Origin: Prevotella sp.
GTDB taxonomy: Bacteria > Bacteroidota > Bacteroidia > Bacteroidales > Bacteroidaceae
Reading direction: 5' to 3'
NCBI GenBank assembly: GCA_017462915.1
Contig: JAFTQG010000038.1
Location: 1-64,000 of the forward strand
DNA length: 64,000 nt
In this document: piece by piece, positions 43,307 to 45,688 of the stretch
Position numbering within the stretch: the stretch's first letter is position 1
Layout: every line of letters starts with the position of its first letter
The notes under the pieces: model-generated
Databases searched by the model: none
The model's input: the letters and a program-made list of their open reading frames with translations, nothing else
What the model was told of the DNA's origin: nothing
Program-made: the position numbers and the translations under genes

Positions 43307-43531
43307 GAAAGAATGGCGTTGCATCGTCAGCAGGAGTTTCTTGCTTTACCTGTAAAATGACAAAGAAACAAATCCGTTTTTTCATGTGTTGACAGAGCCT
43401 TGTATCTGTCTTTGCCTGCTGGCACAGGTGCATCCTGCAATATGTCTCCAGTGGTATCAGAGGTAAATGGCGTACTTGCTGTAATTATATGTATTTCAGT
43501 GGTTTGTGAAAATTCTTTCTTTCGCGTTGCA

Positions 43532-43613
43532 AAAGGTGACCTTTCTGCCGGCAAACCGTTACCTTTCATACGGTCAAGGGTGACCTTCCGCAGCGTGAAG
43601 GGTCACCCTTGAC
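43532..43613. repeat. 22-bp-phased palindrome array, element D
   Basis: Cores at 43536 (GTGAC), 43558 (GTTAC), 43580 (GTGAC) and 43602 (GTCAC), exactly 22 bp apart. The box AAAAGGTGACCTTTC (43531-43545) is the closest match to the palindrome AAAGGTSACCTTT. It lies about 160 bp before the promoter-like box of the structured RNA. Confidence 0.85.
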
Positions 43614-43765
43614 ATTTCTTCCCGTCATGTCCGCTTTGCTGCACCGACAAAGACAATATCATGCCCATTGCAGTATCAGCGTCATAAAAATATGCTTTTT
43701 TCGCAAAAATATTGATTTTTGCATTGATTTTCTTGCCTTTTTTCTTTATTGACAATACTTTTTTG

Positions 43766-43773
43766 TATTTTTG
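43766..43773 (+). promoter_or_regulatory. Candidate -7 box for the structured RNA / WG-repeat gene
   Basis: TATTTTTG followed by C; 21 nt upstream is TTTC instead of TTTG. It is the only good -7 match before the structured region, so a transcript would start near 43780 and have a leader of about 400 nt. Confidence 0.45.
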
Positions 43774-43869
43774 CAAAGCAATATACAATGGCAGGAGATG
43801 TCTTCCGCCGTTTCCATTGCAAGCTAACCGATTGTCAAACCTAAATACATAAAACAAGAAACAGACATA

Positions 43870-44173
43870 TATACACGAATGAAACGCTGAGGGACACCCG
43901 GTTCAAGGAACCGATTTTCTCTTAGAGACTTAAAAACCGAGATGCTTGCATCTCAATATTTAATTCCGGCGTTCCCATTCCATACTTTATTGATATTGAG
44001 CTTTTAGCTCTTGTTCTCTACTATCGAATACCGCCAATATTCATCCAACGAGAACAAGCAGACTGGAGGTTCACGCCGTCAAGGCGTGAGCCATTCTGTG
44101 CTTGTTGTTGGAAAAGGTCACTTGGCGGTAACCTGAGATTAGACAAGCAGAAAGAATGGTTGCACGCCTTTTT
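43870..44173 (+). ncRNA. Highly structured leader RNA with alternative terminator (candidate attenuator/riboswitch)
   Basis: Pairings visible: a 7-bp stem AACGCTG (43883-43889)/CGGCGTT (43967-43973) closing a junction with hairpins CGGTTC-AAG-GAACCG (43899-43913) and GAGATG-CTTG-CATCTC (43939-43954); GAGC-TTTTA-GCTC (43998-44010); a perfect 9-bp stem TACCGCCAA (44029-44037)/TTGGCGGTA (44122-44130) closing an arm made of CCAAC/GTTGG, AACAAGCA (44053)/TGCTTGTT (44099) and GGTTCACGCC (44068)/GGCGTGAGCC (44083). The segment 44083-44104 can instead pair with 44144-44168 (three 6-bp blocks) followed by TTTTT (44169-44173), an intrinsic terminator 16 bp before the WG-repeat ATG. It matches no RNA family I know (not RNase P, tmRNA, SRP or 6S). 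Confidence 0.7.
44083..44173 (+). terminator. Alternative terminator within the structured leader
   Basis: GGCGTG (44083)...CCATTC...TGCTTG (44104) pairs with CAAGCA (44144)...GAATGG...CACGCC (44168), followed by TTTTT. The right arm is a diverged direct repeat of 44055-44077, which pairs with the same left arm, so the two stems exclude each other. Confidence 0.6.
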
Positions 44174-44188
44174 CATATCCAAAATAAA

Positions 44189-45688
44189 ATGAAAAAAATA
44201 TTATTTATTTTATTGATTATATTTCCTATAACATGTAGTGCGGAACGTTTTGATATAAAATCTCGTTATTCTGACTATTCCTTATTCTATGAATATGAAG
44301 AAAATGGTTTGTGGGGAATAAAGTTTCAGGATGAAATTTGTCTTGTTCCGCAATTTGACGGATTGAAACCTGTAACCAATTTTTATAATCATGTTTTTCT
44401 TTATAAAGAAAATGGTTTGTGGGGAATAATGTGTCCGACAAAGATAATAACTCGACCTTTATTTGATGAGTGTTATATAGAGAAACTTTCATGGGGATGG
44501 CAACAATATTTGATATTGTTTAAATCTAAAAATAAATATGGTGTTGCGGGCATAACTGGCATAAAATATTTGGAAGCTAAATATGATAGCATTAAAGTCT
44601 TCCAATTTCGTGATTTTCATAAAAAGTGGAAGAGTGAACGTTGGGAAATAAAAAATAATACGGATAACAGGGATATTTATTTTGCCGTTTTATCCGATGG
44701 AAAATGGAACTTATTAGATATGTTGGGCAATATCGTTTATAGCGATTTTCAGATTAATATGACTGACAAATCAAAAATCGCTTTTGGAAAAGTCTTGGAA
44801 AAATACGAAATAGGTCGTAATAAGGCAGACAAATTTGTAAAGGACAAGATAAGGCATGCCTACAAAAATGAAAGTTCTTATCAGACGAAGTTGGATAATT
44901 TTTTTAATAAATATTTTAGATATGATACGATAGGGTTAGATTTAGGTGATGTTGAGAAGCATGTGTATGAGACAACATTTATAGATGTTCCATGGTTGGA
45001 AGACTCACAAGAAGCGAAACTGGAACGTGATCCTACAAATGTCTATGCCTTGAGGAATATTCTTTATGAAAATATGCCTCCGCTCCGAGATAAGTATCAG
45101 TTTGACGCAACTTTGGATGAAGAAAGTCTTGAGGAAGAAATAAATAGGTGTTATCAGATACATTCGCTAAATGATGATTATATAGAAATCGTTAGAGCAA
45201 AAGGATATTCGGAGGAAAGTACTTTTTATAAAGATGCAGAGTATATAGCAAAAAGAGCTTGGGATATCATAGATGCCAATAGAGAAGGAATTCCCAGAGT
45301 GCGTAAGGAAAAGAAATGGGCGAGAACAATGAATACAATGAATAGCATAGCCTCTGCTCTTACAAATACAGTGAATACGCTTAATTCACTTAAAGGGAAT
45401 AGTGGAACAATTCAATCTGGTTCTTCCACTTCAACAGGTTCTGTTGGTACTAAGAAGAAAGACTATGAGGCACCATATTCTCTTACTGCAAATCACAATA
45501 GAAATACTGATAGCAGAACTTATGCAAGCTATGATTCCATGTTAAGTAAGATGCGTTTTGGTAATGAACCATATAATGATGCAAAAAGAAAAGAGTATCA
45601 ATCAAAGATGAAAGCTTTACGACAGAAATGGGAGCAGCGTGGAGAACGTTTCCAGCATTCTGAGAATGAAGATTGGTTGGGTAAATGA
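44189..45688 (+). CDS. Secreted WG-repeat protein
   Basis: 499 residues from ATG 44189, which gives the signal peptide MKKILFILLIIFPITCSA; the frame opens upstream at 44156, but that start lies in the RNA terminator arm. WG-type repeats lie about 20-190: NGLWGIKFQDEICLVPQFDG, NGLWGIMCPTKIITRPLFDE, NKYGVAGITGIKYLEAKYDS and DGKWNLLDMLGNIVYSDF. The middle region is charged and helical; the C-terminal 110 residues are Ser/Thr/Asn-rich with NTMNSIASALTNTVNTLNSL. Codon use is strongly A/T-ending, unlike all neighbours, which suggests recent acquisition. WG repeats are common in secreted or surface proteins, with no single known role. Confidence 0.85.
   Translation: MKKILFILLIIFPITCSAERFDIKSRYSDYSLFYEYEENGLWGIKFQDEICLVPQFDGLKPVTNFYNHVFLYKENGLWGIMCPTKIITRPLFDECYIEKLSWGWQQYLILFKSKNKYGVAGITGIKYLEAKYDSIKVFQFRDFHKKWKSERWEIKNNTDNRDIYFAVLSDGKWNLLDMLGNIVYSDFQINMTDKSKIAFGKVLEKYEIGRNKADKFVKDKIRHAYKNESSYQTKLDNFFNKYFRYDTIGLDLGDVEKHVYETTFIDVPWLEDSQEAKLERDPTNVYALRNILYENMPPLRDKYQFDATLDEESLEEEINRCYQIHSLNDDYIEIVRAKGYSEESTFYKDAEYIAKRAWDIIDANREGIPRVRKEKKWARTMNTMNSIASALTNTVNTLNSLKGNSGTIQSGSSTSTGSVGTKKKDYEAPYSLTANHNRNTDSRTYASYDSMLSKMRFGNEPYNDAKRKEYQSKMKALRQKWEQRGERFQHSENEDWLGK

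Follow-up and report, generated by a model that had tools for sequence, protein, structure and literature searches.

Transcription attenuators in which an antiterminator competes with a terminator are known from the trp/TRAP, ANTAR and T-box systems. EAR and put are processive antiterminator RNAs, and CopA-CopT is an antisense system that passes from loop-loop contact to duplex. We analyzed 64,000 nucleotides of DNA from Prevotella sp. (contig JAFTQG010000038.1; this whole stretch is called the window), in which an element ahead of a reading frame beginning at 44189 is probably a 5′ leader and transcription attenuator whose two conserved folds exclude each other, a long rod being the antiterminator. 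As in the trp/TRAP, ANTAR and T-box systems, a shared strand (B) can pair upstream or downstream, and behind the downstream pairing a U-run closely precedes the gene. The element departs from those systems in that the end of a long rod containing hypervariable helices would serve as the antiterminator; neither a leader peptide nor a tRNA nor any known RNA-binding site could be recognised here, and the RNA precedes surface-protein and HTH genes. The likeness to EAR and put is that of a structured leader RNA predicted to favor readthrough, but the rod shares a strand with one specific adjacent terminator. Two complementary loop regions that can zip into a long duplex recall CopA-CopT; here, however, both strands lie in one molecule, and a kissing-loop intermediate was little supported, the 5′ mini-hairpin having a z of −0.5 and the 3′ mini-hairpin a weak z of −3.7 (160 copies; 1 of 161 was without the core).

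Palindromic candidate structured RNAs of Bacteroidetes, such as HMP2_4205 (132 bp), were described by Fremin and Bhatt (2021; PMC8040213). As far as that text describes them, these candidates share with the present RNA a palindromic character, a similar length, a mostly Bacteroidetes origin and a predicted terminator, and differ from it in that the text gives TPR, ruvA and TonB-gene neighbors and no competing fold. It is possible that the candidates overlap part of this family, since they are set apart by descriptions alone. Rfam 15, T-box and known riboswitches included, gave no match at the gathering score in the window; the best match at 43600-44300 had E = 4 (noise, E 4-9.4), and 20 distant loci gave none at E ≤ 0.5, in agreement with an earlier note on this DNA, which recognised no known family. 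In the main texts of openly accessible papers, judged by titles and abstract openings, nothing was recognised as this RNA. The family of attenuator-like leaders thus appears to be unnamed; its kind is known, and what is new is the rod-type antiterminator with hypervariable helices together with its spread across the phylum.

All parts of the element lie on the forward strand. A promoter-like site, TTGACA...TATTTTTG, occupies 43749..43774 and is presumably of the Bacteroidetes −33/−7 type. Immediately upstream of it and outside the RNA, several short palindromes are found around AAGGTGACCTT / AAGGGTCACCCTT (43530-43612). The phylum-shared unit is about 43998-44173; positions 43779..43992 form a 5′ extension with small hairpins, and similar extensions were seen by eye upstream of genus copies. 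The unit opens with the P1 hairpin GAGCTTTTAGCTC (43998..44010), whose GAGC and GCTC are nearly invariant in 34 copies. Next come seg1 (44010..44018) and then the 5′ strands of three helices: v1, the first hypervariable helix (44019..44025, partner at about 44135-44142, imperfect in the window copy), the core helix (44029..44037, partner 44122-44130) and v2, the second hypervariable helix (44044..44049, partner 44107-44112). Seg2 (44050..44058) can pair with seg1, giving P2 of the OFF fold, or, jointly with the antiterminator strand A (44059..44077), with B (44083..44099) and seg3 (44100..44106); B can pair with A or C, and seg3 with seg2 in the rod or with seg4 in the terminator. The 3′ strands are v2′ (44107..44112), the core partner (44122..44130) and v1′ (44135..44142), and the terminator consists of C, which includes part of seg4 (44144..44168), and a U-run (44169..44173). 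The stem list and the matched-partner test described below placed seg2 and seg3, both of these and a 34-copy alignment placed the 3′ core strand, and matched-partner tests placed B, v2′ and v1′.

The earlier note had proposed a set of stems, including a 9-bp long-range one, and these were recovered in the window: the perfect 9-bp stems I7 (44029-44037/44122-44130, the long-range one) and I6 (44010-44018/44050-44058), the perfect stem I18 (44081-44088/44163-44170) and stem I9 (44068-44077/44083-44092), which is 90% complementary. The folding energy of 43779-44175 was −115.9 kcal/mol, compared to −88.0 ± 5.9 kcal/mol for 100 dinucleotide shuffles (z = −4.7), none of which equaled it. Its further proposal, that 44083-44104 pairs either with an upstream copy or with a downstream repeat followed by TTTTT, was also confirmed, the two partners being 44055-44077 and 44144-44168 and the TTTTT lying at 44169-44173 directly behind the second. 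A predicted terminator does precede the ATG at 44189, although the gap between them is 15 nt and not the 16 bp first given. This B:C terminator is absent from the list of a simple terminator scanner with a loop limit of 8 nt, which reports the hairpin at 43998-44010. Over the whole window, the model R2 found a single element at 44010-44147 (119.4 bits; 34.2 bits on its opposite strand).

The putative regulated gene (44189..45688) encodes 499 amino acids with a signal-peptide-like start. It had been called a WG-repeat gene, and ENGLWGIK / ENGLWGIM repeats are visible by eye, but with neither start codon did Pfam yield a family at E values up to 1. The other start is an in-frame ATG (ATG GTT) at 44156 inside C; among 93 copies, an ATG in C occurs in 75, and in only 17 of these does it share the frame of the gene with no stop in between, which is no more than chance level, so that the ATG within C was rejected as the regulated start. 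Within the 5′ extension, segment D (43968-43980) is B-like and complementary to C. The D:C pairing reached z = −6.3 in 89 copies, a value arising across subgroups only, with no covariation within either subgroup; a segment E, considered as the partner of D, gave z = −0.2 and was discarded. The extensions, which are specific to the genus, often hold a two-codon frame, ATG AAA TAG or ATG ACA TAG, near the presumed transcript start (L015, L024, L025, L027, L028, L031 and L037), and in the 5′ parts of three others (L002, L004 and L005) AAAGGAGG, which lacks a start codon, stands in its place.

We used a matched-partner test, in which the strand of each copy is paired with its own partner and with the strands of other copies, on 94 distinct copies (95 minus one near-duplicate; 3 of the 95 came from other families and the remainder from the genus). 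The rod consists of v1:v1′, the core, v2:v2′ and seg2+A:B+seg3. Own partners fitted far better than those of other copies in v1 (−6.2 versus −1.0 kcal/mol, z = −34) and v2 (−7.5 versus −2.3 kcal/mol, z = −30), and the same test gave z = −9.3 for the core, −6.3 for the rod tip (seg2+A:B+seg3), −6.8 for the terminator (B+seg3:seg4+C) and −5.3 for P2. The controls were flat, with A:C at z = +0.1 and v1:v2′ at z = +0.9, and, as a point against the model, in seg1:seg4 the own partner fitted slightly worse than those of others (z = +4.7). Among 49 copies that are not of the genus, z was −8.5 for A:B and −11.1 for B:C, compared to −0.5 for A:C. Beyond the genus, the core helix also changes its sequence in step with its complement. 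The flat A:C and v1:v2′ controls indicate that relatedness alone is not the source of the signal, an objection that they answer in part, since the shuffles ignore the tree. The final pair of P2, which the rod does not use, is C-G in 54, U-A in 18 and U-G in 16 of the 94 copies. In the 34-copy alignment, rod cells were paired in 89.8% of cases compared to 34-44% when slid, double-change cells in the rod numbered 187 versus 77 after shuffling, and RNAalifold recovered the rod unaided. Judged by covariation, two mutually exclusive folds are both kept. The locus thus has a predicted intrinsic terminator between the promoter-like site and the start codon, formed by the covarying B:C stem and the U-run, and a mutually exclusive antiterminator that shares a strand with it, A:B and B:C covarying and A:C not. 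Compensatory changes in both exclusive helices of the homologues fit the attenuator logic that had been suggested from the single sequence.

In the mechanism that we propose, transcription would begin upstream of the element. In the ON state, v1-core-v2-seg2-A would zip with B-seg3-v2′-core′-v1′ into the long rod, sequestering B and letting RNA polymerase read through; in the OFF state, seg1 would pair with seg2 as P2, whose formation would free B, and B would pair with C, a terminator presumed to act in the cell, so that transcription would stop just before the start codon. By computation the rod is favored over the terminator fold by 14.3 ± 4.1 kcal/mol and forms the minimum free energy (MFE) structure in 91 of 94 copies, the window copy being one of the three in which the terminator fold is the MFE; P2 has at least six pairs in the computed OFF fold of 70 of 94 copies. 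On these computed energies the rod would be the default ON state and, because it is so much the more stable, the OFF state needs an agent: some factor that prevents the zipping of the rod would turn the gene off.

To assess the distribution of the element, we searched genomes with a covariance model (R1) built from 34 copies, a seed that left out one locus at the same place as L001 (L009), two broken copies (L010 and L038) and a chance match (L008), and with R2. R1 matched in 213 of 398 genus genomes and 115 of 393 order genomes. Of the 296 genomes in a phylum sample, 33 had an R2 match: that of the window, 25 more from its class and 7 that share the phylum only. These genome counts may include generic long hairpins, since the opposite strand of a true copy reaches 24-50 bits and the weak R1 matches of about 50 bits were partly checked. 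Up to 8 candidates per genome were scored for genus and order with R1 and up to 11 for the phylum sample with R2, so that copy numbers are lower bounds. The genome of the window itself holds at least ten copies at E ≤ 1e-6 (R2): BLAST with the window copy found six additional ones at 79-84% identity, R1 added two weak copies and R2 one further. Named carriers confirmed by R2 are Leyella stercorea, Paraprevotella clara, Phocaeicola massiliensis and Xylanibacter caecicola. By eye, all 15 loci fetched from outside the order have a rod, a B-like segment and a complementary C, but the U-run looks weak in four (L339, L342, L343 and L353), a point against the attenuator reading. If that reading is right, Rfam lacks a common regulatory RNA of Bacteroidota, one with matches in about half of the sampled genus genomes and in other orders and classes.

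From the matches we fetched and examined 161 elements, 112 from the genus and 49 from outside it by kinship; L185, taken from a wrong place, was left out. Each of the 161 is followed by a T-rich tail under a lenient pattern, and 155 by a same-strand reading frame. In the genus (109 of the 112 copies with a reading frame), the distance from U-run to ATG had a median of 17 nt and was at most 60 nt in 99 of 109, compared to a median of 40 nt and 34 of 46 outside the genus. Orientation and distance to the start codon are thus kept among the genus sequences. The promoter-like motif TAnnTTTG was enriched within 320 nt upstream of P1, being present in 45 of 86 genus loci versus 17 of 86 control stretches and 24 of 86 on the reverse strand (median distance 217 nt), and outside the genus in 30 of 38 versus 9 in controls and 9 in reverse (median 88 nt).

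Genus downstream proteins were predominantly secreted-looking by a home-made hydrophobicity rule, used in place of SignalP (95 of 109 versus 44 of 120 other reading frames of the same loci; p = 2e-15), and outside the genus no excess of secreted-looking products was seen (15 of 46 versus 24 of 61; p = 0.55), which likewise counts against the proposal, 15 of the 46 downstream genes there being small HTH genes. In the window genome, 8 of 10 copies precede a gene whose protein has a signal-peptide- or lipoprotein-like start; one copy (C24:45406) precedes a short reading frame that by eye has such a start, and another (C16:81776) a small HTH gene with two lipoprotein-like genes behind it. Among 93 downstream proteins, most of them from the genus, Pfam families included BspA-type LRR_5 (13), DUF4468 (4), BACON (3) and Big_2 (3). 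DNA methyltransferase genes stand behind a few copies (L087 by Pfam, L094 and L224 by eye). Were the proposed attenuator correct, one kind of attenuator would govern proteins by which these bacteria come into contact with hosts and competitors: BspA-type repeat proteins, lipoproteins and, perhaps, TonB receptors.

Second-messenger riboswitches commonly stand, as one element, ahead of a wide range of genes, and this arrangement, together with conserved unpaired stretches beside the core helix in the 34-copy alignment, is what a metabolite riboswitch would predict, in which a pocket made of the conserved loops near P1 and the core helix would bind a ligand that balances rod against terminator. 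We regard this reading as doubtful, given that two of the helices are hypervariable, that the core itself differs in other families and that the downstream genes have no common pathway.

An attenuator controlled by protein, with the adjacent small HTH protein binding the rod or one of its strands, seems to us about equally doubtful. Of 393 order genomes, 74 have genes matching the HTH profile A7, and 55 of these 74 also carry R1, compared to 115 of 393 overall; this overlap is partly circular, since the profile was built from genes behind the RNA. An R2 match lies upstream on the same strand at 22 of 30 HTH loci, 12 of which are places that built the profile; of the 18 others, 10 have an R2 match (one of only 32.8 bits) and 3 more are rod-like by eye. 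At 19 of the 30 loci, the next same-strand gene encodes, by eye, a signal-peptide- or lipoprotein-like protein. Outside the order, a divergent regulator-like gene lies upstream at 8 of the 15 loci read, in three families (f120, f121 and f125); of 7 such genes put to Pfam, 5 have HTH matches at E ≤ 0.01, three of them above a curated cut-off, and the other 2 have none. Against direct control of the RNA, the nearest solved relative, at a weak E of 0.0027, is the putative DNA-binding protein 3bs3, and the window genome has one such HTH gene for ten RNA copies. Within our main reading, too, the small HTH proteins encoded beside many copies are candidate regulators, acting on the RNA or, perhaps more likely, on promoter DNA.

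In seven of the eight loci with a divergent gene, the rod is followed after about 220-400 nt by the start of a TonB-receptor-like gene; Pfam recognised the Plug domain in all 3 of those tested, and the others were judged by eye. Such a distance to the next large gene, like the upstream promoter-like motif and the terminator-like 3′ end, would suit a free-standing small RNA whose 3′ end is the terminator, with the downstream gene using its own signals, which the earlier note had held out as an alternative to an attenuator or riboswitch. We consider it improbable, because such an RNA needs no conserved competing antiterminator and because the median of just 17 nt between U-run and start codon in the genus leaves little room for a second promoter; with the promoter-like motif enriched upstream, this gap favors the leader of that earlier pair of options and tells against the other. 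A DNA-level palindrome without any RNA, such as a recombination or cruciform site of attC- or REP-like type, would explain why the element scores on both strands and why G-U is rare in v1 (2.7% versus 26.7% in the A:B tip), a weak argument as the G-U share of v2 depends on the borders chosen (0.8% versus 12.5%), but it is very improbable, since B:C lies partly outside the palindrome and yet covaries, the genus keeps orientation and distance to start codons, and the A:B tip is rich in G-U.

Within the attenuator, the G-U count in v1 was 18 of 672 pairs in 95 copies with G-U scored fairly. For v2, the higher share was obtained with flanks included and the lower one by scoring Watson-Crick only with trimmed ends; a near-absence of G-U in both variable helices was accordingly rejected, and low G-U is limited to v1. 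In MFE folds, G-U made up 10% of pairs in the whole outer zone and 19% in the inner zone. The orthologues L051, L005, L052 and L054, whose products are 55-57% identical, share v2 and nearly v1, and copies within one genome differ in their variable stems. These results raise the question of why helices whose pairing is obligatory vary so freely among copies, one of them almost free of G-U. Speculatively, the element could be a phylum-wide "self-antisense" switch, in which two competing hairpins, P2 and the terminator, carry a strand and its full complement in their loops, and these two strands zip to give a terminator-blocking rod; locus-specific hypervariable helices would then prevent cross-pairing of the leaders of one cell, and the device and the small HTH proteins would together set which surface proteins are made by these Bacteroidota.

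Several minor observations concern individual copies. Six of the TonB-receptor-like genes (at L340, L344, L345, L346, L349 and L352) share similar N-terminal stretches (e.g., MNYFSFYKDGKALYCLFF) and stand opposite differing HTH genes; the six may form one set of paralogous receptor cassettes. At the matching place of a relative (G060), L010 (1501-1957) keeps the 5′ part of the leader, its 3′ part is cut, and a 105-aa reading frame follows that replaces the window's gene; this is a copy broken by deletion or rearrangement. In a viral collection, the P1-seg1 pattern was present in two stretches, one of them with an R2 match. Some copies lie within about 160 nt of a contig start (G224:C13, G320:C28, G294:C11, G349:C67 and G219:C79), a position typical of assembly-breaking repeats.
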